Assembly (NCBI GenBank): GCA_029968055.1 | Contig: JASCNX010000004.1 | Location: 372,001-436,000, forward strand | Reading direction: 5' to 3' | Source: Xenophilus aerolatus | GTDB taxonomy: Bacteria; Pseudomonadota; Gammaproteobacteria; Burkholderiales; Burkholderiaceae_C | Length of the DNA: 64,000 bases | Shown here: positions 3,797-62,921 of the stretch, in pieces | Position numbering within the stretch: the stretch's first letter is position 1 | How the letters are laid out: every line of letters begins with the position of its first letter | Translations under genes and position numbers: made by a program | The notes under the pieces: generated by a model | Database searches by the model: none | What the model was told of the DNA's origin: nothing | Seen by the model: the letters and a program-made list of their open reading frames with translations, nothing else

Positions 3797-3808
3797 GGAA
3801 GCGCCCGT

Positions 3809-4654
3809 TCAGGCCGTGGGCAGCACCCGCAGTTCCTGCCAGCCTTCCCACTGGCCGCCCGGCGCCAGCGCCACGGGCGCATCGATGCTCGCCGCCTCGA
3901 CGCAGAGCATGTGGCGCCAGCCGTCGTCGGGCATGTCGGCCAGCCGTTCGCTCAGCGCCGGGCCGGGGTTCCACACCACGGTCTCGGGGCAGGTCTCGCT
4001 CTGGGCGATGGCCAGGCGCCCGGCGGGCTGCACCAGCGTCAGCGGCGCGCCGGGGGCGGCGGTGAAGACGCTGTCGAACTCTTCGCCGAAACCCAACGCA
4101 GGAGACGCTTCGACGAAACGCTGGTCGCGCACCGCATCCCAGCGCGGGCGGCCCTGCAGGCCTTCGAGGCGGGCCTGCGTGGCATCGTCCACCCGCAGGT
4201 AGGTGTGCAGCGCGGCGGTGAAGGACCAGTCGGCGTTGCCGGTGTTGCGTACCTGCAGCGCCACGCGCAGGCGGCCCGGCGCCAGGGTGACGCGCAGGAC
4301 GGCCTCGAAGGCCGCCGGCCAGGCGCGGCGCGTGGCCTCGTCATCGACCCGACGCAGCACCAGCGTGTCGTCGCCCTCGGCCGGGGCCAGTTGCCAGGGA
4401 ATGTTGCGCACGAAGCCATGCTTGGACAGCGGCCCCCGCTGGTTGAACTGCGGAAAGCACAGCGGCACGCCGCCGCGGATGGCGGCCTGCCCGTCGAACA
4501 CGGCGCGCGGGCTCAGGTACAGCCGCTCCACGCCGTCGGCGGTGCACCAGGACAGCACATGGCCGCCGTGCAACGCCGCCACCAAGCGATCGCCGCCGGG
4601 CAGGCGAAGTTCAGCCGCGGGCTGGCCGCGGAAGTCGATGGATTGAACGGGCAT
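3809..4654 (-). CDS. D-hexose-6-phosphate mutarotase (aldose 1-epimerase family)
   Basis: YeaD-type mutarotase, a beta-sandwich enzyme that interconverts alpha and beta anomers of hexose 6-phosphates. Visible family features are GGHVLSW near the N-terminus, the substrate-binding CFPQFNQRGPLSKHGFVRN, the central LHTYLRV histidine and FDSVFTAAP, then a conserved VVWNPGP and HMLCVEAA near the end. The ATG chosen gives 281 residues; an in-frame GTG six bases earlier is possible. The ATG is favoured because a TAGAAT hexamer ends 7 bases before it, so transcription would start at or next to it. It is divergent from the symporter gene. Confidence 0.88.
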   Translation of the reverse strand: MPVQSIDFRGQPAAELRLPGGDRLVAALHGGHVLSWCTADGVERLYLSPRAVFDGQAAIRGGVPLCFPQFNQRGPLSKHGFVRNIPWQLAPAEGDDTLVLRRVDDEATRRAWPAAFEAVLRVTLAPGRLRVALQVRNTGNADWSFTAALHTYLRVDDATQARLEGLQGRPRWDAVRDQRFVEASPALGFGEEFDSVFTAAPGAPLTLVQPAGRLAIAQSETCPETVVWNPGPALSERLADMPDDGWRHMLCVEAASIDAPVALAPGGQWEGWQELRVLPTA

Positions 4655-4661
4655 GCGCACG

Positions 4662-4667
4662 ATTCTA
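4662..4667 (-). promoter_or_regulatory. Candidate -10 element of the mutarotase gene
   Basis: TAGAAT on the minus strand, 7 bases before the ATG; no Shine-Dalgarno lies between. This is the same arrangement as at lptM and aroB and suggests a leaderless mRNA. Confidence 0.45.
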
Positions 4668-4814
4668 GGGAGCCGGTGCGACGCTCAGGCATCGCGTGCA
4701 TGGCCGCAGGCCGGATCGGCATGACCGCCCCCCTTCACAGGCATGCAACTCGCATCGACCATGGCGGGCCGCGCGCCTCCCAAAAAACCATCAACAACAG
4801 ACAAGGGGATTGAT

Positions 4815-6119: not shown

Positions 6120-6139
6120 GAGCACGGCACGTCAGGGTC

Positions 6140-7060
6140 ATGGCCATCGCCCCATCCGTGCGCGCGGCGGTCTTCGGACTGGCCGCCGCCTTCTGCTTCG
6201 GCGCCCAGGCGCAAGACGCACCGCCCGCGCCGGCCGCCCTGACCGGCACGCTCGCCAAGGTGCGCCAGTCGGGCACCATCGCGCTGGGCTACCGCGAATC
6301 GTCGGTGCCCTTCTCGTACGTCGGGCCGCGCAAGGAGCCCATCGGCTACTCGGTCGAGTTGTGCAAGGCGCTCGTGACGTCGATCGAGGACGCGGTCAAC
6401 CGCAGCCTCACGATCCGGTGGGAGCCCGTCACGTCGGACAACCGCATCGACGCGGTGACCAGCGGCCGCGTCGACCTCGAGTGCGGCTCCACCACCAGCA
6501 ACGTCGAGCGGCAGAAGCGCGTCGCCTTCTCGCCCATCGTCTTCGTGGCCGGCACCAAGGTCATGGTGAAGAAAGGCTCGCCGATCCGCGACTTCCGCGA
6601 CCTGGCCGGCAAGAAGGTGGACGTGACCGCCGGCACGACCAACGAGAAGGCCATGCGCGACCTCTCGGACAAGTTCAGGTTGGGCATCCAGTTCGTGGTG
6701 TCGAAGGACCATGCCGAGGGCTTTGCGAAGGTCGCCAGTGGCGAGGCCGACGCCTTTGCGACCGACGACGTGCTGCTCTACGGCCTGATCGCCGAGAACG
6801 CGAGCAAGCCGGGCGGCCCCTTCGTGGTGGTGGGCGACTTCCTCTCCTACGACCCCTACGGGATCATGTTCCGCAAGGACGACCCGCAACTGGCCAAGGT
6901 GGTGAAGGACGCCTTCCAGGTGCTGGCCGAGGACGGCGAGATCGAGCGCCAGTACAAGCGCTGGTTCCTGCGCAAGCTGCCCTCGGGCACGAGCCTGAAC
7001 CTGCCGATGAGCGCGCAGCTGGAGACGATCATCCAGACCATGGCCGTGAAGGCGGAATAG
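6140..7060 (+). CDS. Amino-acid-type ABC solute-binding protein, without partner permease
   Basis: Periplasmic binding protein of the polar amino acid (GltI/cluster 3) family. A signal peptide runs to about residue 24 (ending FGAQAQD). Two-lobe receptor features follow: LGYRESSVPFSY, GYSVELCKAL, the substrate-contacting CGSTTSNVERQKRVAFSP, VTAGTTNEKAM, and YDPYGIMFRKDDP. Length is 306 residues, normal for GltI. The gene follows the symporter in the same direction by 20 bases, and no ABC permease or ATPase genes lie nearby. It may serve an ABC system encoded elsewhere, or assist the neighbouring carrier. Substrate, probably glutamate or aspartate, is inference. Confidence 0.87.
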   Translation: MAIAPSVRAAVFGLAAAFCFGAQAQDAPPAPAALTGTLAKVRQSGTIALGYRESSVPFSYVGPRKEPIGYSVELCKALVTSIEDAVNRSLTIRWEPVTSDNRIDAVTSGRVDLECGSTTSNVERQKRVAFSPIVFVAGTKVMVKKGSPIRDFRDLAGKKVDVTAGTTNEKAMRDLSDKFRLGIQFVVSKDHAEGFAKVASGEADAFATDDVLLYGLIAENASKPGGPFVVVGDFLSYDPYGIMFRKDDPQLAKVVKDAFQVLAEDGEIERQYKRWFLRKLPSGTSLNLPMSAQLETIIQTMAVKAE

Positions 7061-7076
7061 GCGTCGAACCGGTCCT

Positions 7077-8267
7077 TCAACGCGTGGGCCAGTGCCAGGG
7101 CGGCACCTGGTCCATGGCCAGGTTGGCGATGCGCGTCTCGCCGAAGTCCTTCTCCAGCTCGATGCGCTGCAGCGCATCGGCCTCGGCGGCCGCATCGAGC
7201 GCGGCGATGAGACGGTTGGCGTGCGAGACCACGATCACCTGCGCATCGCGCGCCGCGCGCACGATCAGCCGGCCCAGCGCGGGCAGCAGGTCGGGGTGCA
7301 GGCTGGTCTCGGGTTCGTTGAGCACCAGCAGCGGCGGCGGCCGCGGCGACAGCAGGGCGGCAGTCCACAGCAGGTAGCGCAGCGTGCCGTCGGACAGCTC
7401 GGCCGTCGCCAACGGCCGCAGCAGGCCGTGCTGCCGCATCTGCAGGGCGAAACGGCCATCACCGCTGCATTGCACCTCGACGCGGGCGCCGGGGAAGGCA
7501 TCGTGCACCGCGGCCTGCAAGGCGGCCCCGTCGCCGATCTCGAAGATGGTCTGAACGGCCGCGGCCAGGTCGGCACCGTCGGCCGACAGCACCGGCGTGC
7601 GCGTGCCCAGTTGCGGCTGCCGCGCCGGGCTGTCCGCGTCGGTGCGGAAATGGTCGTAGAAGCGCCAGCCGCGCACCTGCTCGCGCAGCGCCAGCATCTC
7701 GGGTGCGCTGCGCGGGTCGGCGAACTCGGTGAGCATGCTGGCCCAGGCCGGCACCGGGCGGCCGACCGCCTGCCAGCCGCCGCCGTCGCCGCGCGCACGC
7801 AGGGCGGCGCCCCTGCGCTCGACCAGCAGTGCCGCCGGCCGCAGCACCGGGCCGTTCCAGATCGCCTCGTGCTTGATTTCGGGGTCGAGCGAGAACGCCG
7901 TGGACGGGATCGGTGGCGGCAGGCCGATGTCGATGGCGTAGCCGAAGCCCGCGTCGTCGGCGCTGCTGAATCCGAGGCGCAGTGCCACCGGATCGCGCCC
8001 ACTCTTCGTGCCCTCGACCGGCACCTCTCCACGTCGCATGGCCGCGGAAATCCGTTCCGGCCCGGCCCAGAGCGTGGAGCCCAGCCCGCCCTCGCGCGCC
8101 AGCGAGCGCACCACGCCGCCCTGCGCCACCTCGGCCAGCAGCCGCATCGCGCGGTACACGCTCGACTTGCCGCTGCCGTTCGGCCCGGTGACGACCGTGA
8201 GCCGCGCCAGCGGCACCGTCAGCTGACGCAGCGAGCGGTAGTTGGCGATGGCGAGGGTGGAGAGCAT
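7077..8267 (-). CDS. AAA family ATPase (AAA_21, SMC/RecF-like)
   Basis: Stand-alone ATPase of the SMC/ABC-like AAA_21 group. It has a Walker A motif GPNGSGKSS at residues 28-36 right after an N-terminal IANYRSLRQLTV strand typical of RecF/OLD-like heads. An ABC-like signature ELSDGTLRYLLWTAALL follows, then Walker B LLVLNEPETSLHP at 313-325 and the switch histidine in VVSHANRL. There is no coiled coil long enough for an SMC arm and no TOPRIM nuclease domain in its 396 residues. Function is unknown; relatives occur singly or in defence systems. It converges with the solute-binding protein gene and lies in the block that splits hisA from hisF. Confidence 0.82.
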   Translation of the reverse strand: MLSTLAIANYRSLRQLTVPLARLTVVTGPNGSGKSSVYRAMRLLAEVAQGGVVRSLAREGGLGSTLWAGPERISAAMRRGEVPVEGTKSGRDPVALRLGFSSADDAGFGYAIDIGLPPPIPSTAFSLDPEIKHEAIWNGPVLRPAALLVERRGAALRARGDGGGWQAVGRPVPAWASMLTEFADPRSAPEMLALREQVRGWRFYDHFRTDADSPARQPQLGTRTPVLSADGADLAAAVQTIFEIGDGAALQAAVHDAFPGARVEVQCSGDGRFALQMRQHGLLRPLATAELSDGTLRYLLWTAALLSPRPPPLLVLNEPETSLHPDLLPALGRLIVRAARDAQVIVVSHANRLIAALDAAAEADALQRIELEKDFGETRIANLAMDQVPPWHWPTR

Positions 8268-11650: not shown

Positions 11651-12004
11651 TCAGGGGCTGCAGCGGTAGCTGTTCTGCAGCGCCGCGGAAAGAACGAGTT
11701 GCACGGGCATGTCGGCCTCGTACTGGTCGGCGTGGCGCGTGAGCTCGCCCTGGTAAAGGGACCGCGCCATCGAGGGCTCGAGCCGGCGGCCGTTGATGCA
11801 GAAGGGCGGCTTCTGGCCGCTGCGCTGCACCGTGTCGGCCACCTCGCGCAGCCCCTCGACCACGCCCACGAGGTAGTAGCCGGCGTAGGCGCGGCCGTCC
11901 TTCTCGTTGGCCTCGAGGGTGCGCAGCTCGCGGATGCTCATCGCCTGGGCCGAGCCCGCGGCCACGAGGGCGCACAGCAGGAGCGGACGCAGCGCGGACG
12001 GCAT
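11651..12004 (-). CDS. Small exported protein resembling Rap1a/Tai immunity fold
   Basis: A 117-residue protein with a cleavable signal peptide (about 1-21, ending GSAQA). The mature part has a pattern seen in Rap1a/Tai-type periplasmic proteins: a helix with YYLVGVVEGL, a cysteine in PPFCINGRRL, a helix ending near the middle, and a final cysteine in LSAALQNSYRC that could pair with the first. Rap1a proteins neutralise peptidoglycan-amidase effectors, but stand-alone members exist and no effector gene is adjacent here. The gene sits between hisD and hisC with gaps of 5 and 8 bases, so it is cotranscribed with histidine genes. The fold assignment is from motif spacing only. Confidence 0.6.
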   Translation of the reverse strand: MPSALRPLLLCALVAAGSAQAMSIRELRTLEANEKDGRAYAGYYLVGVVEGLREVADTVQRSGQKPPFCINGRRLEPSMARSLYQGELTRHADQYEADMPVQLVLSAALQNSYRCSP

Positions 12005-12009
12005 GGCAC

Positions 12010-13388
<1,379 letters not shown>

Positions 13389-15067: not shown

Positions 15068-16353
<1,286 letters not shown>

Positions 16354-16403
16354 CGGGAGTCCAGCGAGATCAGGGAGCCGGCGCCGCGCGCCGACGGAAA
16401 AGG

Positions 16404-16646
16404 TCAGTGCCCCTGCGCGGCCCACTCGGCCGGCGTGAAGGTCTTCATCGACAGCGCATGCACTTCGTCGGTATGCATTTTCGCACCCAGGGTCGCGTAG
16501 ACCCGCTGGTGCCGCTGGATGGCGCGCTTGCCCTCGAACTCGGGCGAGACGATGGTGGCGTACCAGTGCCGCCCGTCGCCTTCGAGCTGGATGTGCTCGC
16601 AGGCCAGGCCCGACTGGATAAGGGATTGGAGTTCTTCGGCCGTCAT
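16404..16646 (-). CDS. BolA family protein (IbaG-like)
   Basis: An 80-residue BolA/IbaG protein. BolA proteins bind monothiol glutaredoxins and a [2Fe-2S] cluster; the IbaG branch is linked to acid stress and envelope lipids. The conserved core is visible as [19 protein letters not shown], with the RHQRVY motif holding the invariant histidine, and a C-terminal [13 protein letters not shown]. It lies directly before murA, the same context as ibaG in E. coli. Its ATG overlaps the ABC permease stop by four bases. Confidence 0.93.
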
Positions 16647-17410
16647 GATCTGAGTTTGTAGCCAATGCGCAGCAGGTGGATGGCCACGGCGCTCACCACC
16701 AGCCAGGCGCTGCCCACGATGCCCAGGCTCAGCCAGGGCGACACGTCGGACACGCCGAAGAAGCCGTAGCGGAAGCCGTCGATCATGTAGAAGAACGGAT
16801 TGACGTGGCTCACGCCCTGCCAGAAGGCCGGCAACGAATAGATCGAATAGAACACGCCCGACAGGAAGGTCATGGGCATGATCAGGAAGTTCTGGAACAC
16901 GGCCATCTGGTCGAACTTCTCGGCCCAGAGCCCCGCGATGAGGCCCAGCGTGCCGAGCAGTGCCGCGCCCAACAGCGCGAAGACCACGATCCACAGCGGC
17001 TGCGCAAAGGGCGGCACCGCGAAGGCGAGCGTGACCAGCAGCACGCCCAGCCCCACCACCAGCCCGCGGATCACCGAGGAGCCCACGTAGGCCAGGAACC
17101 AGCCCCAGTGCGACAGCGGCGTGAGCAGCACGAAGACCAGGTTGCCCATGATCTTGCTCTGGATGATCGACGACGAACTGTTGGCGAAGGCGTTCTGCAG
17201 CACGCTCATCATCACCAGCCCGGGAATGAGGAAGGCGGTGTAGCTCACGGTGCCGTAGACCTTCACGTGGTCTTCCAGCACATGGCCGAAGACCATCAGG
17301 TACAGCACCGCCGTGAGCACGGGCGCGCCCACGGTCTGCAGGCCGACCTTCCAGAAGCGCAGCACCTCCTTGTACAGGAGCGCGCGCCAGCCGAGTGCGG
17401 TGACCATCAT
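16643..17410 (-). CDS. ABC-2 type exporter permease (YadH-like)
   Basis: Membrane half of a two-gene ABC-2 exporter. The 255-residue product has six predicted helices and the family segment [28 protein letters not shown] after the second helix. It also has [15 protein letters not shown], typical of YadH/NodJ permeases. The ATP-binding partner is encoded 16 bases upstream, and bolA follows with a 4-base overlap. The substrate is unknown; YadGH-type systems are often annotated as drug or lipid exporters, and the location between mla and mur genes suggests an envelope role, which is inference. Confidence 0.9.
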
Positions 17411-17426
17411 GGCCGGGCCTCCCGGC

Positions 17427-18374
17427 TCATCGCGCCACCTCCAGCGGCGTCTGCTCGCCGGCCATCAGGTCGATGAAGACGTCTTCGAGGTCGGCCTTGC
17501 GCATCTCCACGTCCTCCACCGCCACACCGGCCTCGCGCAGCGCAGCCAGCACCTGCTCCACCTCGCGCGCATCGTGCGCCGGCAACTGGACGATGCGGCC
17601 GGTGATGCGCGCGTGCTGGGCCAGCGCCCAGGGCAGGTTGGCATCGGTCTTGAAGCGCAGCACGTTGCTGGCCGAGGACTTGAGCAGGGCGCTGGTGCTG
17701 TCGAGTGCGATCACCCGCCCTTTCTTGAGCATGGCGATGCGGTTGCACAGGGCCTCGGCCTCTTCCAGGTAATGGGTGGTGAGCAGGACCGTGCTGCCCT
17801 GCTTGTTCAGTCGGGCGACGAACTGCCACAGGGTCTGGCGCAGTTCGACGTCGACGCCGGCCGTGGGCTCGTCCAGCACGATCACCGGCGGCTTGTGCAC
17901 CAGGGCCTGCGCCACCAGCACCCGGCGCTTCATGCCGCCCGAGAGCTGGCGCATGTTGGCCGTCGCCTTGTCGGCCAGGCCCAGGCTGCTCAGCAACTCG
18001 TCGATCCAGTCGTCGTTCTTCGCGATGCCGAAGTAGCCCGACTGGATGCGCAGCGTCTCGCGCACGTTGAAGAAGGGGTCGAAGACCAGCTCCTGCGGCA
18101 CGATGCCGAGCTGGCGGCGCGCCTCGGCGTAGTGCGTCTGCACGTCGAAGCCCCGCACGCTCACGCTGCCGGCGGTGGGGCGCGACAGGCCGGCCAGGAT
18201 GCTGATCAGGGAGGTCTTGCCCGCGCCGTTGGGCCCCAGCAGGCCGAAGAACTCGCCCTCCTGGATCTCGAAGCTGACGTCGTCCAGCGCACGCAGCCCC
18301 GACTGTCCATGGGCCCGTTGCTGGCGTGAGGCGGGGTAGGTCTTGCAGACCGACTGGAAGGAGATCGCGGGCAT
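17427..18374 (-). CDS. ABC transporter ATP-binding protein (YadG-like)
   Basis: ATPase subunit of the ABC-2 exporter formed with the next gene. It has Walker A GPNGAGKT (47-54), Q-loop IVPQELVFD, signature LSGGMKRR (144-151), Walker B VIVLDEPT (164-171) and the switch histidine in LLTTHYLEEAE. A C-terminal extension of about 90 residues follows the nucleotide-binding domain, as in other exporters of this class. Length is 315 residues. The start lacks a ribosome binding site; a TAAAAT hexamer lies 9 bases before the ATG, so the exporter genes may have their own near-leaderless transcript within the mla-murA region. Confidence 0.92.
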   Translation of the reverse strand: MPAISFQSVCKTYPASRQQRAHGQSGLRALDDVSFEIQEGEFFGLLGPNGAGKTSLISILAGLSRPTAGSVSVRGFDVQTHYAEARRQLGIVPQELVFDPFFNVRETLRIQSGYFGIAKNDDWIDELLSSLGLADKATANMRQLSGGMKRRVLVAQALVHKPPVIVLDEPTAGVDVELRQTLWQFVARLNKQGSTVLLTTHYLEEAEALCNRIAMLKKGRVIALDSTSALLKSSASNVLRFKTDANLPWALAQHARITGRIVQLPAHDAREVEQVLAALREAGVAVEDVEMRKADLEDVFIDLMAGEQTPLEVAR

Positions 18375-18383
18375 GGGGGCCGG

Positions 18384-18389
18384 ATTTTA
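18384..18389 (-). promoter_or_regulatory. Candidate -10 element of the YadG-like ATPase gene
   Basis: TAAAAT on the minus strand, 9 bases before the ATG in a short gap after mlaB. Only G and C lie between, with no Shine-Dalgarno. It fits an internal promoter giving a leader of about 2-3 bases. Confidence 0.4.
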
Positions 18390-18432
18390 GGCGGCCCGCC
18401 TGCGCCACGCTGGTGCGCGGCTTTGCAAGCGC

Positions 18433-18726
18433 TCAGGGCGCTGCAGGCAGCAACCCGGCAATGCCGTAGAGCATGGCCAGTTCGCGCAGGCGCTGCGGCA
18501 ACCCCTTCACCGCGAAGCCGCGCCCGAGGGCGCTGGCCTCGCGCCGGCACTCGAGTAACACCGCCAGGGCCGAGGAATCGAACTGCGCCAGCGCGCTGGC
18601 GTCGATCACGGCCGCCGAGCCCTTCTGGCCGGCGAGCCCCTGCTGCAGCATGCGCATGCAGTCGGGGGCTTCGTCATGCGTGAGCCGCGTGGGCAGCACC
18701 AGCATGTAGGCGTCGGATGCAGCCAT
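18433..18726 (-). CDS. mlaB: MlaB STAS-domain protein
   Basis: Cytoplasmic STAS-domain subunit that binds the MlaF ATPase and supports assembly of the MlaFEDB lipid transporter. The 97-residue product shows the STAS pattern: a starting beta-strand, VIDASALAQFDSSALAVLLECRREA with the DSSAL loop, and a closing strand and helix. It is last in a minus-strand mlaFEDACB order, 18 bases after mlaC. Small size and sequence divergence are normal for MlaB. The assignment rests on both the STAS pattern and its position. Confidence 0.88.
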   Translation of the reverse strand: MAASDAYMLVLPTRLTHDEAPDCMRMLQQGLAGQKGSAAVIDASALAQFDSSALAVLLECRREASALGRGFAVKGLPQRLRELAMLYGIAGLLPAAP

Positions 18727-18744
18727 GGGCCTGGCGGTCCCCGC

Positions 18745-19398
18745 TCAGCCCTTGGCGTTGGCCTTGTTGCGCGCCGCAAGGGCCGCGATCAGGCCGTCGA
18801 TGCCCTTGCTGTTGATTTCCTGGGCGAACTGGGTGCGATAGGTGTCGACCAGCCAGACGCCCATCACATTGAGGTTGTAGACCTTCCAGCCATAGCCCTG
18901 CCCGGGCGTCTTCTCGAGGCGGTAGTCCAGCTGCACGGGCTCGCCACGGCCGCGGATCTCGGAACGCACGAGCACTTCCTGGTCGGCCGCCGAGCCGCGG
19001 AAGGGCTTGATCGTCACCGTCTGGTCGCTCACCTGGTCGAGCGCACCGGCGTAGGTGCGGACCAGCAGCGCCTTGAACTCGTCCTGCAGGCGCTTCTGCT
19101 GCTCGGGCGTGGCCTGGCGCCAGGCCGGGCCGACCGCCGAGGCGGTCATGCGCTGGAAGTTCACGTTGGGCATGATCTTGGTGTCGACCAGGCCCATGAT
19201 CTTGTTGACGTCACCGGCTTTGATCGAGCTGTCGGCCTTGATGGTGTCGAGCACCTCGGTCGACAGGCGCTTGACCAGCACGTCGGGCGCTTCGTCGGCA
19301 GCGAAGGCCGGCTTCATGGTGCCGGCTGCAGCACCGAGCACGAGGGCGCCAGCCAATGCCCAGCGGCCGAGCGTGCGACGTTGCAGGAGGGTGTTCAT
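18745..19398 (-). CDS. mlaC: Periplasmic phospholipid shuttle MlaC
   Basis: MlaC carries phospholipids across the periplasm between MlaA at the outer membrane and MlaFEDB at the inner membrane. The 217-residue product begins with a signal peptide that has an RR pair (QRRTLGRWAL) and ends about residue 33 at KPAFAADEA. The mature part has the family features VDTKIMPNVNFQRMTASAVGPAW, a helix with LLVRTYAGAL, and GYGWKVYNLNVMGVWLVDTYR near the end. Whether Sec or Tat exports it is not clear from the RR alone. It is preceded by mlaA and followed by mlaB. Confidence 0.94.
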   Translation of the reverse strand: MNTLLQRRTLGRWALAGALVLGAAAGTMKPAFAADEAPDVLVKRLSTEVLDTIKADSSIKAGDVNKIMGLVDTKIMPNVNFQRMTASAVGPAWRQATPEQQKRLQDEFKALLVRTYAGALDQVSDQTVTIKPFRGSAADQEVLVRSEIRGRGEPVQLDYRLEKTPGQGYGWKVYNLNVMGVWLVDTYRTQFAQEINSKGIDGLIAALAARNKANAKG

Positions 19399-52135: not shown

Positions 52136-53071
52136 ATGACGATCGAGACCTTCGAGCGCACCCTGCCGAACGGCATCACCCTCAGCTGCCGCGCCGCCGG
52201 CGAGAAGGGCCGCCCGCTCATGGTGTTCCTGCACGGCTTCCCCGAAGCCGCCTTCATCTGGGACGAGTTGCTCGAATGGTTCTCGCAGCCGGCCAACGGC
52301 GGCTACCGCTGCCTCGCGCCCAACCTGCGCGGCTTCGAGAAGTCGAGCCAGCCCAAGGAGGTCGAGGCCTACCGCCCGCACCTGCTGGTCCAGGACATCG
52401 TGGAGCTGGTCAAGACCGAACGCGAGGACGGCATCATCGACACGCTGGTCGCGCACGACTGGGGCGGCGCCTTCGGCTGGGGCCACGCCAACGCCTTCCC
52501 GGGCCAGGTGCGGCGACTGGTGATCATCAACTCGCCGCACCCCGGCACCTTCACCCGCGAGCTCAAGAACAGCGCCGAGCAGCAGAAGGCCAGCGCGTAC
52601 ATGAACTGGCTTGCGGCGCCCGGCTCCGAGAAGGTGCTGGCCGAGAACGACTTCGCCCGGCTCTTCGCCATGTTCACCATGATGAAGGCCGGCCCCGACG
52701 GCTTCGGCTGGCTGACCGAGCCGGTCAGGCAGAAGTACCGCGACGTGTGGAACCAGGGCCTGACCGGCGCCTGCAACCTCTACCGCGTGACGCCGATGAA
52801 GCCGCCCGTCCCCGGCAAGACCACCGCCGACGACATCCCGACGCTGCCCCACGAGCGCCTGGCGGTGACGGTGCCCACCCTGGTGCTGTGGGCCATGGAC
52901 GATGCGGCGCTGCTCCCGGGCCTGCTCGACGGCCTGGATGCCTACGTGCCCCGGCTCGAGATCAAGCGCGTGCCCGGCGCCACGCACTGGATCATCCACG
53001 AGCAGCCCGAGGGCGTGGCACGCGACATCGGCGCCTTCATCGCGCGGACGCCGTCGCCGCCGTCGGCCTAG
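52136..53071 (+). CDS. Alpha/beta hydrolase, epoxide hydrolase-like
   Basis: Alpha/beta-hydrolase of 311 residues with the soluble epoxide hydrolase pattern: oxyanion motif HGFPE (33-37), nucleophile Asp108 in AHDWGG, a helical cap (about 130-225), an acidic residue in LWAMDDAAL and the catalytic histidine in GATHWIIHEQP near the C-terminus. An aspartate nucleophile separates it from esterases; haloalkane dehalogenase is an alternative. The ribosome binding site TAGGAGAC precedes the ATG. It converges with the Pls/PosA-type gene: the two stop codons share the palindrome CTAG. Confidence 0.88.
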   Translation: MTIETFERTLPNGITLSCRAAGEKGRPLMVFLHGFPEAAFIWDELLEWFSQPANGGYRCLAPNLRGFEKSSQPKEVEAYRPHLLVQDIVELVKTEREDGIIDTLVAHDWGGAFGWGHANAFPGQVRRLVIINSPHPGTFTRELKNSAEQQKASAYMNWLAAPGSEKVLAENDFARLFAMFTMMKAGPDGFGWLTEPVRQKYRDVWNQGLTGACNLYRVTPMKPPVPGKTTADDIPTLPHERLAVTVPTLVLWAMDDAALLPGLLDGLDAYVPRLEIKRVPGATHWIIHEQPEGVARDIGAFIARTPSPPSA

Positions 53072-56000
53072 CCGCGCCAGGGCACGGCCGGCAGGCCGTG
53101 CCAGCGCGTGCGGGGCGGGATCGTCTCGCCCTTCATCACCAGCGTCATCGGCCCGAGCTGCGCACCGTCGCTCACCTGCGTGCCGTAGAGCATCGTGGTG
53201 CGCGGCCCCACCGTCACCCGGCTGCCGATGTGCACGTGGTCGATCTTCATCACGCGGTCCTCGAACAGGTGGGTCTGCGGGCAGCAGGCGGCGTTCAGCT
53301 CGCTGTGCTCGCCGATGTGCACGCAGTCGAACTCGGTGATGTCGGTGGTGTCCAGGTACACGCCGCGCGCGATGTCCGCCCCCAGCAGGTTGAAGGCATT
53401 GTTGAGCCATGGCGTGCCGCGCAGGTAGCGCAGGAACCAGGGCACCGTGATGCCCTCGTACATGTTGGTCACCGCCTCCGAGAGCCAGACGAAGGGCGTC
53501 CACATCGGCGTTGCGCGGCGGTCGTAGCGGCGCACCGTCAGCCACTTGAAGACCGCCACGAACAGGAAGGTGGCCAGTGCGAAGGCCGCGCCGCCCACCG
53601 CCAGGTCGACCGCCACGTCGCCCCAGCGCCCGGACTCGGCCAGTGGCATGGCGTCCAGCACGATGGCGTAGCCCACGGCGATGACCAGCGCATGCGGCGC
53701 GGCGATGCGGAAGGCCTCCACCGTGCCGCGGCCGAGCTTGCGCCAGCGTGACGGCGCGAAGGTCAGGTGCGGCGCGAAGCCGCCGACCACCTCGCGTGCC
53801 GGCAGGTGCACCGGCGGCGCGCCCAGCCAGGTGTCGCCCGGCTGCATGGCGGTCGCGCGCGGCACGGCGCTCATCACGCCGATCAGCACGTTCTCGGGAA
53901 TCACCGTGCCGTCGGGCACGTAGGCGCCGTTGCCGACGAAGCTGCGGCGCGAGACGACGGTGGGCTGCACCGTCATCCAGCCGCCGTCGATGTGCTCGTC
54001 GCCCAGCATCACGGCATCGGCGATGAAGCACTCGTCGCCCAGGGTCAGCATGTCCGGCACCACGCCCAGCGCGGTGGACAGCTCGGTCTCCTTGCCGACC
54101 TTGGCGCCGAGCAGCCGGTACCAACTGGCCGAGAACACCGTCGCATACACCCCGTGCAGCACCGCCAGGCTCGACTCCTGGATCTGGTTGACCAGCCACT
54201 TGCTCAGGTAGCGGTTGCCGTGCACCGGCCAGGTACCGGCCTGCATGCGCGGCAGGAACAGCACCCGCAGGGCAGCAGCCGCCAGCGCCGTGAAGGCGAT
54301 GAAGACCAGGCTGGCCGGCAGCGCGAGCAGGAAGAACTTCACCAGCCGCAGGCCGAAGGCCTGCCAGTCGGTGATGGTGCCGGCATCGACCAGCGGCCGC
54401 ACGGAGATCGACTCGACGTCCAGCTGGTCGATGAGCAGGAAGGTCGGGAACACCGGCATGAAGAACAGCACGGCCACCACCAGCGCGCCCGCGATGAAGA
54501 ACGCCATCTCCCAGCGCAGGCGCCGGCGGCTCACGGCCGGGCGCGGCGGCAGGCTGGCCGGGTCGAAGTCGGCGCGCTCGCGCGCGGGCGAGCCGTGCCA
54601 GACCTTGCGCGGCGGCACCGACTGGCCGGCCGACAGCGCTGACTGGCCCTCCAGGTGTCCCCAGTCGCCGATGGTGGTGCCGCCCTCGATGACCACGTAC
54701 GAGCCGATGCCGGCCTGCGCGCCGATGTCGATGCGGCCCAGGTGCAGCAGGCCGCCCTCGACGCGCGCGTTCTCCAGCATCACGGCGTTGCCGATGCTGC
54801 TGCCCTCGCCGATGCGCACCAGCTCCGGCACCCGCACCGTGACCGAGCCGAGGTTGACCTCGTCACCGATACGCGCGCCCAGCGCCCGCAGCCACCAGGC
54901 ATAGAGCGGCGAGCCGTTGATCATGTAGGTGGGCACGGCCTCGACCAGCCGGTCGGCCAGCCACCAGCGGAAGTACACCCAGCCCCACAGCGGGTAGCTG
55001 CCCGGCGCCAGCCGCCCGGCCACCAGCCACTTGCCGGCCCAGGCGACCGCGAACTCGGCCAGCGTGGTGAGGACGAACACCGCCACCGAGGCCGCGATGG
55101 CGAAGGCCACGCTGTCGCCCTCCTCGCCGGTGTTGAAGTGATAGGCGAAGAAAGGTGCCAGCCACTGCGCCATCTTCAACAAGACCAGGAACGGGATGAG
55201 CGCCGCCTGCGCCAGGCCGCAGCGCCAGCGACGCCAGGCCGAGTGGAGGACGAAGGGCCGCTCGGGCGCGGCGCTGCCGGCCTCGGCCATGCCGCGCTGC
55301 AGGGCCTCGGCGATCGCGCCCACCTGCCGGCCGGCATACACGTCACCCACCGTGGCCTGCGCGAAGCGCGCGTCCTGCCGCAGCTGCGAAATCAGCCGCG
55401 CCGCCAGCAGGGAATGCCCGCCCAGGTCGGCGAAGAAGTCGTGCGTGCGCCGGATCGGCTGGCCGGGGAAAAGGCGGCCCAGCGCCGCGAAGAGCAGCTC
55501 CTCGGCCGGCGTCTCGGGCAGGTCGCCGCCCTCGGCCTCGCGCGCCGCCGCCAGCGGCAGCGCCCGCAGCGCCTTGCGGTCGATCTTGCCGCTGGGCAGG
55601 CGGGGCATGGCTTCCAGGGGCTCGAAGCGTGCGGGCACCATGTATGGCGGCAGCCGCCCGGCCAGCGCGGAGCGCAAGGCCGGCGCCGCGACCGGGTCGC
55701 CCGATGCCACGTAGAAGGCGATCAGCTGGTCGATGCCACCTTCGGGCCGCAGCACCACGGCCGTGGTGCCCACGCCCGGCTGCTGCGCCAGCACCGCCTC
55801 GATCTCGCCGAGTTCGACGCGGAAGCCCCGCACCTTGACCTGGTCGTCGGCCCGGCCGAGGCACTGCATCTGCGGCGTGCCGTCGGCCCGCACCTCGACG
55901 CGGGCCAGGTCGCCGGTGCGGTACAGCCGCGCCTCGCCCGCGTTGCGTGCCCAGGGGTTGGCGACGAACTTCTCGGCCGTGAGTTCCGGCCGCCCGAGGT

Positions 56001-57144
56001 AGCCGGCCGCCACGCCCGGGCCGGTGATGCACAGCTCGCCGGTCTCGCCCACCGGAAGCAGCTTCAGCGGCGGCAGGCGCCCATCGACGATGGCCTCGGG
56101 CTCGATGACCTCGATCACCAGCAGGCCGTAATTGGGCAGGGCCTCGCCGATGGTCACGGGCTCGCCGGCGTGCAGCTCGGCCAGCGAGGCGGACACCGTC
56201 GCCTCGGTCGGCCCGTAGGTGTTGAAGATGCGGCGCGTGGGCGCCGTCCACTTGTCGACCAGCGCCTGCGGGCACATCTCGCCGCCGAGGTTGATGATGC
56301 GCAGGTTCGGCACATCCTGCGCGAACAGCGCCAGCAGCGTGGGCACCGCATGCAGCACCGTGATGTCCTGCTCGATGAGCGCGCGCGGCAGCGCCTCGGG
56401 GTCGCCGGCCAGGGTGCGCGGCGCGATCCAGAGCGAGGCGCCGACCAGGTAGCTGATCCAGATCTCCTCGAAGCTCATGTCGAAGGCGACCGAGAAGCCC
56501 TGGTACACGCGGTCGTTCTCTTCCACGCCCAGGCGTGCGTTCTCGCTGCGCAGGAAGTGGCAGATGCTGCCCTGCGTGATGGCGATGCCCTTGGGCTTGC
56601 CGGTGGAGCCGCTGGTGTAGATGACGTAGGCCGTGTGCTCGGGCAGCGCACCTTCGCGCCGCCGCGCCACCGTGCCGGGCGGCAGCGGCGCCAGCAGGTC
56701 CGCGGCCTGGATCACCTGCGTGCCGGCAGGTGGCTCGGCCAGCGCGGCGCCGGTGCCGGCATCGACCAGCAGCACGCGCGCCGCGGCATCGTCGAGGCAG
56801 ACCGCGATGCGCTCGACGGGCACCTCGGCGTCGAAGGGCAGCCAGGCCGCGCCGGTCTTGGCGATGCCCAGCTGCAGCACCAGCAGCTCGATCCCGCGCA
56901 TGAGCCACAGCCCCACCATGTCGCCGGGCCGCACGCCGGCCTCGATCAGGCGGTGCGCGACGCGATCGGCCGCCTGGTCGAGTTCGCCGTAACTCAGCGC
57001 GACCGTGTCGAAACGCAGCGCGGTCTTGCCCGGCAGCCGCGCGGCGGTGGCCTCGAACAGGTCGGCCAGCACCTCGTGGCGCAGCAGGTCGGGCCGGTCG
57101 GGACCGTGCAGCAGGGAATCGGTCGGCAGGGCGCGGGGATGCAT
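53068..57144 (-). CDS. Pls/PosA-type membrane non-ribosomal peptide synthetase
   Basis: Large synthetase (1358 residues) with one adenylation domain (about 20-530), a carrier domain (540-620) and a long membrane C-terminal half. Adenylation motifs: YTSGSTGKPKG (176-186), NTYGPTEA (308-315), YRTGDLARV, VKVRGFRVELGEIE and LPSGKIDRKAL with Lys520. The carrier serine is Ser578 in DLGGHSL. Then come pairs of membrane helices and three tandem left-handed beta-helix (hexapeptide) regions, the layout of Pls/PosA enzymes that make isopeptide-linked amino acid homopolymers. No condensation or thioesterase domain of normal type is present. The substrate and product are unknown. Two LpxL-like genes precede it. 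Confidence 0.87.
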   Translation of the reverse strand: MHPRALPTDSLLHGPDRPDLLRHEVLADLFEATAARLPGKTALRFDTVALSYGELDQAADRVAHRLIEAGVRPGDMVGLWLMRGIELLVLQLGIAKTGAAWLPFDAEVPVERIAVCLDDAAARVLLVDAGTGAALAEPPAGTQVIQAADLLAPLPPGTVARRREGALPEHTAYVIYTSGSTGKPKGIAITQGSICHFLRSENARLGVEENDRVYQGFSVAFDMSFEEIWISYLVGASLWIAPRTLAGDPEALPRALIEQDITVLHAVPTLLALFAQDVPNLRIINLGGEMCPQALVDKWTAPTRRIFNTYGPTEATVSASLAELHAGEPVTIGEALPNYGLLVIEVIEPEAIVDGRLPPLKLLPVGETGELCITGPGVAAGYLGRPELTAEKFVANPWARNAGEARLYRTGDLARVEVRADGTPQMQCLGRADDQVKVRGFRVELGEIEAVLAQQPGVGTTAVVLRPEGGIDQLIAFYVASGDPVAAPALRSALAGRLPPYMVPARFEPLEAMPRLPSGKIDRKALRALPLAAAREAEGGDLPETPAEELLFAALGRLFPGQPIRRTHDFFADLGGHSLLAARLISQLRQDARFAQATVGDVYAGRQVGAIAEALQRGMAEAGSAAPERPFVLHSAWRRWRCGLAQAALIPFLVLLKMAQWLAPFFAYHFNTGEEGDSVAFAIAASVAVFVLTTLAEFAVAWAGKWLVAGRLAPGSYPLWGWVYFRWWLADRLVEAVPTYMINGSPLYAWWLRALGARIGDEVNLGSVTVRVPELVRIGEGSSIGNAVMLENARVEGGLLHLGRIDIGAQAGIGSYVVIEGGTTIGDWGHLEGQSALSAGQSVPPRKVWHGSPARERADFDPASLPPRPAVSRRRLRWEMAFFIAGALVVAVLFFMPVFPTFLLIDQLDVESISVRPLVDAGTITDWQAFGLRLVKFFLLALPASLVFIAFTALAAAALRVLFLPRMQAGTWPVHGNRYLSKWLVNQIQESSLAVLHGVYATVFSASWYRLLGAKVGKETELSTALGVVPDMLTLGDECFIADAVMLGDEHIDGGWMTVQPTVVSRRSFVGNGAYVPDGTVIPENVLIGVMSAVPRATAMQPGDTWLGAPPVHLPAREVVGGFAPHLTFAPSRWRKLGRGTVEAFRIAAPHALVIAVGYAIVLDAMPLAESGRWGDVAVDLAVGGAAFALATFLFVAVFKWLTVRRYDRRATPMWTPFVWLSEAVTNMYEGITVPWFLRYLRGTPWLNNAFNLLGADIARGVYLDTTDITEFDCVHIGEHSELNAACCPQTHLFEDRVMKIDHVHIGSRVTVGPRTTMLYGTQVSDGAQLGPMTLVMKGETIPPRTRWHGLPAVPWRG

Positions 57145-57197: not shown

Positions 57198-58073
57198 TCA
57201 GTACACCTTCGGCTCGCCCGGCGGGCGCGACTTGAAGCGGCGGTGCACCCAGTAATACTGCTCGGGCATGGCGTCGATGTAGGCGGCCAGGCGGCGGTTC
57301 ATGAGCGCCGTGTCGGCCACGGCGTCGTCGGTGGGGAAATCGGTCCAGGCCGGCAGCACCTCGATCTCGTAGCCGCCGGGCACCAGCCTGGAGATCACGG
57401 GCACGACCTTGGCCCGCCCCAGCCGCGCGAAGCGCGACAGCGAAGGCACCGTGGCCGCCATGACGCCGTAGAAGGGCACGAACACCGATTGCGACGGACC
57501 GAAATCCATGTCCGGCAGCAGATACAGCACGCCCCCCTTGCGCAGGCCGCCGACGATCTCCTTCACGCCGTCGACGCGATGCAACACCGTGACGTTGCCG
57601 AAGCGCGTGCGGCCCCGGCGCGTCCACTCGTCGACCATCGGGTCGCGCTGCGTGGTGTAGATGGTGGTCGACGGCTTGGGGCTGTGCTTGGTGAGCGCCG
57701 TTGCCGCCGCGTCGAGGCCGTAGAAGTGCGGCGCGAACAGGATGGTCGGGTCGTGGCCCTCGTCGATCTCGCCGATGGCACCGGTGATGCGGATACGACG
57801 GTCGACCACCTCGGGCGGCGCATGCCAGAGCCAGCTGCGGTCCAGCCAGGCCTGCGCCACATACACGAAGGTCTGGCGCGCGATGCGGCGACGCTCCTCG
57901 GCCGACTTGCCGGGAAAGCACAGCGCCAGGTTCACGTCCACCACATGGCGTCGCGGTCTGGCCACCGCGTGCAGCACGCGGCCGAGCACGGTGCCCAGCG
58001 CGCGCGTGACCGGCAGCGGCACATGCGCCAGCGCCTTCATGAAGCCGATGCCCATGCGGGCCGAGAGGCTCAT
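57198..58073 (-). CDS. LpxL/HtrB-type acyltransferase, second copy
   Basis: Inner-membrane acyltransferase of the lipid A late-acyltransferase family, 291 residues. A hydrophobic N-terminus is followed by VDVNLALCFPGKSAEERRRIARQTFVYVAQ, the catalytic H-x4-D motif in APHFYGLD, then LRKGGVLYLLPDMDFGPSQSVFVPFYG and a C-terminal PEQYYWVHRRFKSRPPGE. The usual H-x4-E/D is satisfied with Asp. The ATG has a GGGGG site upstream and lies 10 bases after the previous acyltransferase. It likely adds a secondary acyl chain to lipid A; a role with the downstream synthetase is possible but unproven. Confidence 0.9.
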   Translation of the reverse strand: MSLSARMGIGFMKALAHVPLPVTRALGTVLGRVLHAVARPRRHVVDVNLALCFPGKSAEERRRIARQTFVYVAQAWLDRSWLWHAPPEVVDRRIRITGAIGEIDEGHDPTILFAPHFYGLDAAATALTKHSPKPSTTIYTTQRDPMVDEWTRRGRTRFGNVTVLHRVDGVKEIVGGLRKGGVLYLLPDMDFGPSQSVFVPFYGVMAATVPSLSRFARLGRAKVVPVISRLVPGGYEIEVLPAWTDFPTDDAVADTALMNRRLAAYIDAMPEQYYWVHRRFKSRPPGEPKVY

Positions 58074-58083
58074 GCTGCCCCCT

Positions 58084-58956
58084 TCATTGCGCCACTTCCA
58101 TCGGCTCGCCCTTGGGCTGCTTGTAGCGCGCGTAGTCCCAAACATATTGGCCCGGCAGGCTGCGCACGAGCTGCGCAATGCCCTCGTTCATCGCGGCCGC
58201 CGCCGCCTCGGGCGTGGCCTCCCGGTCGGTGAGCGCGGTGCCGGTGAAGGGGATGAAACGGATCGCGTAGCGCCCGCCCCGCAGACGCTCGCACACGCCG
58301 AGGAAGACCTTGGCGCCGGTGGTCTGCGCCAGGCGGGGCAGCAGCGTCATGGTGTAGGCCGGCCGGCCCAGGAAGGGCGCCCACACGCCCTGCCCCAGCG
58401 GCGGCACCTGGTCGGGCAGGATGCCGGTGTAGCCCCCCTCCTTGAGGGTGCGCATCAGTCCGCGCACGCCCTTGACGGTGGTGGGCAGCGTCTGCAGGCC
58501 GGGGCGGTCGCGCGAGCCCTCGACCAGCCCGGCGATCCACTTCTTGCGCGAGGGACGGAACAGCGCGGTGATGGGGCCGTGGTCCTTCACGAAGCGCTCG
58601 CCCACGGCCTGGCCGTACATCTCCCAGCTGCCCAGGTGCGGCACGATCATGATGACGCCCTTGCGTTCGGCCAGGGCGGCCTCGAAGACCTCCGCGCCTT
58701 CCCAGCGCACGACCTTGGGCAGTACGCTCTCGCCGGCCGGGCGGGCCCACAGCCAGGGCAGCTCGGCCACCATCTCGCCAGCCGCGCCGATGGCCGGGCG
58801 CCACTGGGCGGCCGTGAAGCCGGCGGCCTCGGCGTTCTCGCGAAAGCGCCGCCGGTAGTCGGGCGCCAGCCACCACACGAGCCAGCCGAAGGCCCGGCCC
58901 AGCGCGTGCATCAGCGGCAGCGGCACACGGGCGAGCAGACGGAACAGCGCGGTCAT
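58084..58956 (-). CDS. LpxL/HtrB-type acyltransferase, first copy
   Basis: Lipid A late acyltransferase homologue, 290 residues. Features are an N-terminal membrane anchor (FGWLVWWLAPDYRRRFRENAEAAG), the H-x4-E motif in VPHLGSWEMYG, the substrate loop FRPSRKKWIAGLVE, GYTGILPDQVPPLGQGVWAPFLGRPA and a closing PGQYVWDYARYKQPK. It is the first gene of a minus-strand run (acyltransferase, acyltransferase, Pls/PosA-type) and is divergent from metK. Two such genes side by side beside metK are usual in Burkholderiales, so the pair probably supplies two acylation steps. Confidence 0.92.
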   Translation of the reverse strand: MTALFRLLARVPLPLMHALGRAFGWLVWWLAPDYRRRFRENAEAAGFTAAQWRPAIGAAGEMVAELPWLWARPAGESVLPKVVRWEGAEVFEAALAERKGVIMIVPHLGSWEMYGQAVGERFVKDHGPITALFRPSRKKWIAGLVEGSRDRPGLQTLPTTVKGVRGLMRTLKEGGYTGILPDQVPPLGQGVWAPFLGRPAYTMTLLPRLAQTTGAKVFLGVCERLRGGRYAIRFIPFTGTALTDREATPEAAAAAMNEGIAQLVRSLPGQYVWDYARYKQPKGEPMEVAQ

Positions 58957-60624: not shown

Positions 60625-62808
60625 TCAGAACCGGTAGCTCCCGCCGAAGCCCACCGTCCAGTTGCGGCCGGGCGCCGGTTCGAAGTAGCGCGCATTGCCC
60701 TCGTTGACGATGACCGAGCCGGCGTACCTGCGGTCCGCGATGTTCTCGACGCGCGCGAAGGCATTGAATTCCCAGCGCTCCCAGCGCTGCACATAGCCCG
60801 CGTACAGCGCCGCCACGGCATAGCCCGGCGCGCCGGCCGTGTTGCGGTCGTTGGCCTGGATGCGGCCGAGGGCACGAAGCTCCACGCCCGCACGCAAGCC
60901 CTGCGGCGGCACATACCCGAAGGACGCGAACAGCGACTGCCGCGCGATGCCCGGAATGCGGTTGTCCGCCGCGACGAAGCTCGCGCCGGTGCACGGCGCG
61001 GGCGAGCAGAAGGCGTCCTGGTAGCGGGCGTCGAGCCAGGTGTAGGCGACCTGCGTGCGCCAGTGGCCCGCCGTTTCGTGCTGCCAGCCCAGTTCGGCCC
61101 CCTGGCGCCGCGTGCGGCCGGCGTTCTGGAAGGTGGCGCGGCCGCCGACGTTGGTGGCGGTCACGATCTCGTCCTGCGTGCGGGTCTCGAAGAGCGCCGC
61201 AGTCAAAAATCCACCCGCGATGCGTGCCTTGGCGCCCAGTTCGACGCTGTCGTTCACCGAGGGCCGCAGCGCGAAGTTGAGGCCGCCGGTGCCGTCGGGG
61301 CGGTACGAGAGTTCGTTGAGCGTCGGCGTCTCGAAGCCGCGTCCCGCCGACAGGTACAGCGCCAGGTCGCGCGTGGGCTGCCAGCGCAGCGAGGCGACCG
61401 GCAGCGTGCGGGCATAGCGGGCGCTGCCGCTGTCGTCCACGTTGCGGCCCAGCACGTAGCGGTCCTGGGAATCGAAGTGCACGCTGCTGCGGCGCACGCC
61501 CGCCTCCAGCGTCCACGCCGGCGCGAAGCGCCAGGTGGCCTGGGCGTAGGGGTCGAGGTTCCAGACCTCGTTGCGCTCGTTGCGGCGCAGCCGGCCGCGC
61601 ACGCCCAGCCACGGGTTTGCCGCCGGCCCGAGGTAGTTCTCGTAGCCGGTGCGCCATTCGCGCATGCGGTCGTAGCCCACGCCCGCGACCAGGTCGAGGG
61701 GCTGGCCGGCCAGGGCGAACTCGCCGGACCAGCGCACGTCCAGGCCGCTGTAGTTGCGCGCCAGGCCGATCACGCCGCCGGCCTGCAGCGGATTGAGCTG
61801 CGCCGAGGGCGGGATGGCCTGGAACTGCGTGGTCTCGCGCTCGCCGCCGTAGAGCATCACCCGCAGCTGGTTGCGGCCGTCGAGCCGGCGCTCGTACAGG
61901 AGGCCGGCCTGGCTTTGCGAGACGGTCTTGCGCGTGTCGTATTGCTGCGCCAGGGTCGCACTGCGCGGTGCGAGCGCGAACTGCTCGGCCGTGAGCCCCA
62001 GCGGGTCCTGCGCGTCGATACGCACACGGTTGGCCACCAGCGTGAGGCGGTCGCCGTTGTCCAGCGTGAGGCCGAGCTTGCCGTTGGCCAGATCGCGCCG
62101 CGCGGCGCTGTGCTCGCGCCAGCCCTCGGTGTCGAAGCGGCTGGCGCTGAAGAGGTAGTCGATGGCCGCGCCGCCGGGGCCGCCCCGCGACCGCGCGCCG
62201 CTGAGCTGCAGGCCCTGCCGCCAGGTGCCGAAGCTGCCGCCCGCGGCCGAATACTGCAGGCGCGGCGCGCCCTCGCCGGTGGCGGTGAAGGCCTGCAGCA
62301 CGCCGCCCGAGGAGTTGCCGTACAGGGCCGAGAAGGGCCCGCGCAGCACCTCGATGTGGTCGAGCGAGGCGATGTCGATGTTGGAGGTCTGGCCCTGCCC
62401 GTCGGGCAAGGTGGCCGGGATGCCGTCGACGTAGATGCGCACGCCGCGCACGCCGAAGGTGGAGCGCGCCCCGAAGCCGCGGATGGACAGCTGCAGGTCC
62501 TGCGCGAAGTTGTAGCGGTTCTGCAGCTGCAGGCCCGGCACGCCGGCCAGGCTTTCGGTGAGCTGGGCCTGCAGCCGGCTGTCGCGCGCCTCCTCGCCCT
62601 CCACCCGGTCGACCGAACCGGCCAGGTCGAAGGGCGCGACCTGGCCGCGCGGCACGCTGACCGTCACCGCGTCGAGCATCGGCGCGGCCGCAGGCGTTGG
62701 CTCTGCCGGCGCGGACTGTGCGGCGGCCAGGCAGGGCATGGCCCAGGCCATCCAGGCCATCCGTGCGGTCAGGGAGCGAAGGAGCGGCGGCTGCGTCATG
62801 CGACGCAT
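60625..62808 (-). CDS. TonB-dependent outer-membrane receptor
   Basis: TonB-dependent receptor of about 727 residues. A signal peptide ends near AMPCLAAAQS. The N-terminal stretch LDAVTVSVPRG is the TonB box region. The plug domain has LAGVPGLQLQNRYNFAQDLQLSIRGFGARSTFGVRGVRIYVDGIP and DHIEVLRGPFSALYGNSSGGVLQ, and a 22-strand barrel ends in the aromatic NWTVGFGGSYRF. Three in-frame starts exist (62826 GTG, 62808 ATG, 62799 ATG); none has a good ribosome binding site. A PepSY protein and a small membrane protein lie upstream, a pattern seen with siderophore or metal uptake. The ligand is unknown. Confidence 0.92.
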   Translation of the reverse strand: MRRMTQPPLLRSLTARMAWMAWAMPCLAAAQSAPAEPTPAAAPMLDAVTVSVPRGQVAPFDLAGSVDRVEGEEARDSRLQAQLTESLAGVPGLQLQNRYNFAQDLQLSIRGFGARSTFGVRGVRIYVDGIPATLPDGQGQTSNIDIASLDHIEVLRGPFSALYGNSSGGVLQAFTATGEGAPRLQYSAAGGSFGTWRQGLQLSGARSRGGPGGAAIDYLFSASRFDTEGWREHSAARRDLANGKLGLTLDNGDRLTLVANRVRIDAQDPLGLTAEQFALAPRSATLAQQYDTRKTVSQSQAGLLYERRLDGRNQLRVMLYGGERETTQFQAIPPSAQLNPLQAGGVIGLARNYSGLDVRWSGEFALAGQPLDLVAGVGYDRMREWRTGYENYLGPAANPWLGVRGRLRRNERNEVWNLDPYAQATWRFAPAWTLEAGVRRSSVHFDSQDRYVLGRNVDDSGSARYARTLPVASLRWQPTRDLALYLSAGRGFETPTLNELSYRPDGTGGLNFALRPSVNDSVELGAKARIAGGFLTAALFETRTQDEIVTATNVGGRATFQNAGRTRRQGAELGWQHETAGHWRTQVAYTWLDARYQDAFCSPAPCTGASFVAADNRIPGIARQSLFASFGYVPPQGLRAGVELRALGRIQANDRNTAGAPGYAVAALYAGYVQRWERWEFNAFARVENIADRRYAGSVIVNEGNARYFEPAPGRNWTVGFGGSYRF

Positions 62809-62921
62809 TGTGTGGGCACCGCGCACCTGGGTGTTGGGTCAAGGCCCCACGCGATGAATGCTGCAGCCGCGCGCGCATCGGCGGGGCGCACCGCTGGCCG
62901 GTTCGACCCGGCCTCAGCGCT

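Follow-up and report, generated by a model that had tools for sequence, protein, structure and literature searches.

The window analysed here, a stretch of 64,000 nucleotides from Xenophilus aerolatus (contig JASCNX010000004.1, positions 372,001 to 436,000), holds a posA-like gene whose product is very probably a delta-poly-L-ornithine synthetase working like PosA of Acinetobacter baumannii. According to the available part of the PosA report (PMC10522769), to which the citations of that source below also refer, the adenylation (A) domain of PosA uses L-ornithine, and the full-length protein produces chains of delta-poly-L-ornithine with 7-12 units in vitro. The assignment is based on the score of the window protein for the Pls/PosA terminal domain (TIGR02353), a substrate pocket identical to that of PosA at all ten positions, PosA as the best match among solved structures, 51% full-length identity and a shared clade. 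It is also based on a separate phosphopantetheinyl transferase (PPTase) gene in the genome and a model of the C-terminal domain with hexapeptide-acyltransferase folds as its best matches. Every feature of PosA-family membership that is open to computation was found.

An earlier sequence-only reading had placed the gene at 53068-57144, and these limits hold, with the gene read on the minus strand from the ATG at 57144 down to the TAG at 53068 in 1358 uninterrupted codons. Pfam assigned residues 30-383 to AMP-binding (PF00501), residues 447-520 to AMP-binding_C (PF13193) and residues 560-614 to PP-binding (PF00550), the peptidyl carrier protein (PCP), in addition to hexapeptide repeats. Of 97 aligned rows, 96 had serine at the position of the PCP serine S578; the remaining row, a fragment, is gapped at this position. 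The terminal domain was recognized by TIGR02353 (NCBIfam) over residues 645-1353 with 773.7 bits (cut-off, 423.1) and profile positions 2-695 of 695; across the whole genome, the posA-like protein was the sole match above the cut-off (three weaker matches, 22.6 to 30.5 bits). The protein was 96-97% identical over residues 1-1357 in four further genomes of its genus. These domain scores and this conservation exclude chance; the gene is real and has the full layout of the Pls/PosA family, with the A domain, the PCP and a terminal membrane domain that scores above the curated threshold.

The substrate pocket was read by alignment to the solved A domain of PosA. The residues D222, M223, E226, H265, N285, G287, T309, V317, S318 and K520 give the code D-M-E-H-N-G-T-V-S-K, which matches the published PosA code at 10 of 10 positions (PMC10522769), including the counterparts of D217, M218, E221, T304 and S313, the residues that contact ornithine in the PosA crystal structures. 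Among solved structures, the A domain scored 498.9 bits with 8g95 (the unliganded A domain of Acinetobacter PosA; PMC10522769), at most 451.3 bits with linear gramicidin synthase and 235.1 bits with the poly-lysine synthetase 7wew. The sequence-only reading had given the pocket as D-M-E-H-I-L-T-V-S; seven of the nine letters were right, and the fifth and sixth had been read one residue early (I284 and L286 for N285 and G287). With this one-residue slip shown by the alignment, the view that the remaining pocket letters depart from known codes was not supported, and a substrate of an unfamiliar or unusual kind was rejected, as the pocket matches that of an enzyme whose A domain uses L-ornithine (PMC10522769). 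By comparison with PosA, the question of the substrate thus appears largely settled in favor of L-ornithine.

The same machinery might, however, serve another main diamino acid in the cell (L-lysine, D-ornithine or diaminobutyrate), or make a mixed polymer. Pocket codes give only a rough prediction of the substrate, and the A domain of PosA binds D-ornithine and L-lysine too in crystals (PMC10522769). The residue M223 argues against this: M218 of PosA limits lysine use, the M218A change raises the efficiency with lysine nearly tenfold, and the position is Ala in lysine enzymes and Phe in diaminopropionate/diaminobutyrate enzymes (PMC10522769). Position 2 of the window pocket is neither Ala nor Phe, while Phe does occupy it in two actinobacterial plasmid relatives, one of which adjoins a diaminobutyrate transaminase gene. 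We consider this alternative improbable. As a separate observation, two loci of Hymenobacter (Bacteroidota; L127 and L128) encode Pls/PosA proteins with the pocket DAESIGTV(I/V)K; Ala occupies its chain-length position, and the published rule would predict lysine.

Most rows of the comparison were supplied by a genome scan, as the best 80 of 526 confirmed stretches. In a tblastn search of plasmid records, four A. baumannii records came first (50.9-51.2% identity over 100% of the query), followed by Azospirillum (41-45%). Note that three posA-positive A. baumannii records filed as plasmids in PLSDB (NZ_CP077849.1, NZ_CP064203.1 and NZ_CP104448.1; 3.7-4.1 Mb) are, judging from their size, probably mislabelled chromosomes. 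Among the best 80 of the 526 stretches, relatives of 50-77% identity were found, for example, in Ottowia, Candidimonas, Janthinobacterium, Rugamonas, Duganella and Massilia, and further in Collimonas, Polaromonas, Pseudomonas, Achromobacter, Advenella and Acinetobacter. The tree was reconstructed from 87 rows with a quick method, without bootstrap and with midpoint rooting (long branches L036, L037 and L038 were flagged). Ten of the 97 rows were left out (the duplicate of the window's own protein, two same-genus near-duplicates and seven fragments), the near-duplicates L033 and L034 were both kept, and the Pls of S. albulus was not in the tree.

In this tree, the window protein grouped with its own genus, then with Ottowia and with G029, a genome of the same family. 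Forty-three of the 87 rows formed a clade that holds the window protein and four Acinetobacter rows, with 100 in the SH-like approximate likelihood ratio test (SH-aLRT). The protein is thus placed with PosA; a position outside Pls/PosA had been named by the sequence-only reading as what would speak against it. The exact code DMEHNGTVSK was present in 38 of the 43 rows and a single T/S swap in the other five, and a separate clade of 28 rows, mostly alphaproteobacterial, carried DLED(I/L)G(S/T)VVK in 28/28. The family score, the pocket and the kinship together support the first assignment of the gene to a Pls/PosA-type synthetase that probably makes a cationic homopolymer with isopeptide bonds. 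Apart from this, the G029 locus (L044; G029:C1:445000-464900) holds two Pls/PosA copies on the minus strand, at 3338-7405 and 15155-19226; they lie about 12 kb from each other and score equally for the terminal domain, the second posA copy being broken into three frames. A homocysteine S-methyltransferase-type gene is also present twice there (1-969 and 11737-12792), and the doubling of both genes suggests a tandem duplication.

For the terminal membrane domain, hydropathy gave six hydrophobic segments arranged as three pairs, with the hexapeptide-type repeats concentrated in three stretches; the six membrane helices in three pairs and the three intervening soluble regions expected of Pls/PosA are thus present by prediction. 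Structure prediction, which had been suggested as a check along with the first annotation, was performed with AlphaFold2 for the C-terminal 739 residues (alignment of 47 sequences). The model had a mean predicted local distance difference test score (pLDDT) of 90.1 and a predicted template modelling score (pTM) of 0.90, and consists of a helix pair followed by a beta-helix, three times over; the published model of the PosA membrane domain agrees with this three-repeat prediction (PMC10522769). Pfam, the TIGR02353 score, hydropathy and the model accordingly bear out the view that one A-PCP module is fused to a membrane domain with three beta-helix regions. A profile search of the PDB with the terminal domain found 83 distinct sequences at expectation values (E) up to 0.01 (best, 1.7e-10), and the best 60 of the 83 were mostly hexapeptide acyltransferases and gamma-carbonic-anhydrase-type proteins, each covering parts of the profile. 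Foldseek and VIA-align found the same classes of fold with the model, hexapeptide acyltransferases being best. The top VIA-align row was serine acetyltransferase (Z 16.0, root-mean-square deviation 1.6 over 101 residues, model residues 125-242), and these rows cover mainly model residues 88-254, so that the second and third repeats were barely probed. The C-terminal domain is thus predicted to have the left-handed beta-helix fold of hexapeptide acyltransferases, a resemblance that does not show function.

Conservation in this domain was examined in 89 rows (the 97 rows minus seven fragments and the duplicate of the window's own protein; near-duplicates included). H1292 was present in 89/89 rows and was the only histidine of the C-terminal domain conserved in 88 rows or more; Q1290, T1291, E1295, D1296, R1297 and K1300 were likewise conserved in 89/89. 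Hexapeptide acyltransferases use catalytic histidines. By analogy with these, we propose the motif around H1292, in the third beta-helix, as a candidate condensation site; the histidine, conserved in all 89 aligned rows, provides a testable site for the unsolved polymerization step.

Combining these features, we suggest that the A domain would activate L-ornithine with ATP and then load it onto the phosphopantetheine arm of the PCP at S578. The C-terminal membrane domain, predicted as three beta-helices in a pseudo-threefold arrangement on six membrane helices, would repeatedly link two units through the delta-amine of the one and the carboxyl of the other, and the product would be a short cationic isopeptide chain.

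As to priming of the PCP, the genome has two PF01648 matches. One of them (C7:37352-38026) has an AASDHPPT-type N-terminal domain and comes after a frame with a carrier-type motif, and its contig also carries large frames of nonribosomal peptide synthetases (NRPS). A match to this PPTase (E up to 1e-5) was found in 6/6 posA-carrying genomes of the genus vs 1/9 of the others (Fisher p 0.0014); this p value overstates the association, as the posA-carrying genomes form one close lineage and shared ancestry confounds the comparison, and the match in one of them (G013) has only 44% identity. When the frames of 90 loci were clustered, the largest cluster after posA (14 loci) was PPTase-like, the printed clusters being judged by their members and example sequence only. 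With a profile made from this cluster, a PPTase-like gene was found directly downstream of posA in 13 of 40 PosA-clade loci (L051, L053-L056, L065, L069, L071, L072, L076, L104, L116 and L126), as if the synthetase travelled there with its own carrier-priming enzyme. The 40 are those clade loci in which frames were called (none were in 3 of the 43 clade rows), and the counts are lower bounds, since the frame caller favours the longest frames and posA itself was lost in 11 of the 90 loci (posA cluster, 79 loci). The example of the cluster scored 22.1 in Pfam against a curated cut-off of 25, so that the label rests on a weak match and on position. A genus search with this example found none in 15/15 genomes (no positive control), and the word phosphopantetheinyl is absent from the main text of the PosA paper (PMC10522769).

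The posA gene was carried by 6 of 15 genomes of the genus. In the window and in four other genomes with the whole gene, it occupies the gap between lpxL and the hydrolase gene (Table 1); in the sixth (G012), posA is divided between two contigs, one of which carries lpxL and the other the hydrolase gene. In the nine genomes without posA, the order lpxL-lpxL-hydrolase-yihA-resB is unbroken with no posA-sized insert between, and the lpxL-hydrolase gap measures -7 to 144 bases from stop to stop. The LpxL protein was 92-94% identical to that of the window in the other posA-carrying genomes and 72-84% in those without posA. The simplest account is a single gain in one lineage; loss elsewhere in the genus may also have occurred. 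Five neighbours of the window gene were searched for in Ottowia (L049) and G029 (L044), which hold the nearest relatives outside the genus; none occurs within the stretches examined, and the posA gene has thus moved between loci. Recent transfer was not supported by composition, as the G+C content of posA (0.721; third position, 0.956) falls inside the range of the five neighbours compared (0.674-0.726; third position, 0.905-0.974).

These data also bear on the possibility that the gene is intact yet silent or inactive in the genus, having arrived at the end of the lpxL pair to stay unprimed or unexpressed. Its presence in only 6 of 15 genomes, between two genes that adjoin in the other nine, and with no PPTase-like gene next to it, would fit such a history. 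However, four other genomes keep the frame open over 1357 residues with 96-97% identity, the pocket and S578 are intact, the composition falls inside the range of the neighbours compared, and the C7 PPTase match accompanies posA in all six genomes, with the reservations on ancestry and on G013 given above. We regard a silent gene as very improbable.

Table 1. Positions of the posA-like gene, its parts and its flanking genes in the window
Feature	Position	Strand	Basis or remark
posA-like gene	53068..57144	-	1358 aa, ATG to TAG; three same-genus relatives share the first residue in the alignment
A domain, residues 30-528	55561..57057	-	PF00501 and PF13193; TIGR01733, 383.1 bits; best solved match, PosA A domain (8g95/8g96)
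Pocket residues 222-318 (K520 further on)	56191..56481	-	Alignment to PosA, published DMEHNGTVSK
PCP, residues 560-614, S578 within LGGHSLL motif	55303..55467	-	PF00550, motif position
Pls/PosA terminal membrane domain, residues 645-1353	53086..55212	-	TIGR02353, six hydrophobic segments, predicted model
Hexapeptide beta-helix 1, about residues 755-830	54655..54882	-	Repeats, model, fold match
Hexapeptide beta-helix 2, about residues 1012-1092	53869..54111	-	Repeats, model, profile match
Hexapeptide beta-helix 3, about residues 1254-1340	53125..53385	-	Repeats, model
QTHLFEDRVMK motif, residues 1290-1300, in beta-helix 3	53245..53277	-	Candidate catalytic site
LpxL-type lipid A acyltransferase, upstream, 53 bases before posA	57198..58178	-	PF03279; match in 15/15 genus genomes
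Alpha/beta hydrolase, downstream, convergent, end overlaps posA end by 4 bases	52136..53071	+	PF00561; 15/15 genus genomes

Elsewhere in the window, near metK, a TonB-dependent receptor gene was found at 60625-62826 on the minus strand; it is most like PqqU (907.9 bits, below the cut-off of 1200).

Several points weigh against a PosA-like function. A DMEHNG- pocket is also present in 11 of 12 Bacteroidota rows (the remaining one has DMESNG-), which are 38-40% identical and lie outside the PosA clade, so that the code alone is no proof of membership in that clade. No adjacent PPTase-like gene was found at the window locus, unlike in the 13 of 40 clade loci, and the neighbours tested with Pfam and NCBIfam include no gene for ornithine supply or export. 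The substrate and product proposed for the window protein are taken from the characterized PosA. Lastly, a Pls/PosA-like gene of the Comamonadaceae relative Ottowia thiooxydans DSM 14619 is mentioned, with no polymer reported from it in the available part of PMC13291983, as a non-alpha-polyamino-acid (NAPAA) type NRPS in a hybrid polyketide synthase (PKS)-NRPS-lipid cluster that also encodes a glycosyltransferase and an uncharacterized protein. This is very likely the posA-like gene of our Ottowia locus (L049), which derives from the strain DSM 14619 and in which the posA-like gene is followed downstream by an EryCIII/Glyco_transf_28-type gene and a gene without a Pfam match; as its protein is 77% identical to that of the window, close relatives may not all act alone.

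The Ottowia cluster would also suit a protein that passes an activated or oligomerized amino acid to an NRPS or a hybrid lipid pathway and makes no free homopolymer, and the A and PCP domains by themselves resemble those of many NRPS modules. Against such a hand-over, the window neighbours tested with Pfam and NCBIfam include no gene for an NRPS, a PKS or a lipid synthase, the locus in the genus is posA alone inserted into a housekeeping stretch, and PosA of the same clade polymerizes alone in vitro (PMC10522769). We consider it extremely improbable and retain delta-poly-L-ornithine synthesis as the very probable function of the window protein.

Nothing in the evidence calls for a new kind of system. 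With this finding, the delta-poly-L-ornithine synthetases gain a conserved branch in the Burkholderiales, and the polymer may thus be commoner than the single published producer suggests. It is an extension and not a discovery, because pockets matching that of PosA have already been reported in many bacterial genera (PMC10522769) and the close Ottowia homologue has been noted (PMC13291983). In the available part of the literature searched for delta-poly-L-ornithine, we found no description of such a polymer from the family of the host organism; the term itself occurred in two papers, the PosA report and PMC13291983. The presence and absence of posA within one genus provide natural strain sets for asking the purpose of the polymer. 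One proposal, improbable as a whole, is that the polymer would be a component of the envelope and not a secreted weapon. The synthetase would have been captured 3' of a late lipid A acyltransferase pair and be co-transcribed with it, short poly-ornithine would be kept at the lipopolysaccharide as a counter-cation, and the H1292 motif would serve all of the Pls/PosA family as its active site for condensation.

Among known systems, PosA of A. baumannii (PMC10522769; PDB 8G95-8G98) resembles the window protein in domain order, in 10/10 pocket positions, in 51% full-length identity and in a predicted membrane domain with three beta-helices, and both genes lack obvious biosynthetic partners. They differ in that the window host is betaproteobacterial, the window gene lies downstream of lipid A acyltransferase genes, the window A domain is longer near residues 345-365, and the product is measured for PosA but predicted for the window protein. 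The Ottowia protein (L049) shares the pocket and is the nearest named relative outside the genus among the best 80 of the 526 stretches, but its neighbours differ, the reported gene lying within the hybrid cluster (PMC13291983). The epsilon-poly-L-lysine synthetase Pls (7WEW) belongs to the same family and has the same layout, whereas its A domain is far more distant (235.1 vs 498.9 bits) and Ala is reported where the window protein has M223 (PMC10522769). The actinomycete poly-diaminobutyrate and poly-diaminopropionate synthetases are likewise of this family and layout; the two actinobacterial plasmid proteins are 36-38% identical to the window protein, but both have Phe at the position of M223, and diamino-acid supply genes lie beside one of them. 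The mostly alphaproteobacterial group, also of the same family and layout and 40-45% identical, differs in its separate 28-row clade and in its pocket, the DLED(I/L)G(S/T)VVK kind being listed in the available part of PMC10522769 as a unique signature, with no substrate named for it.

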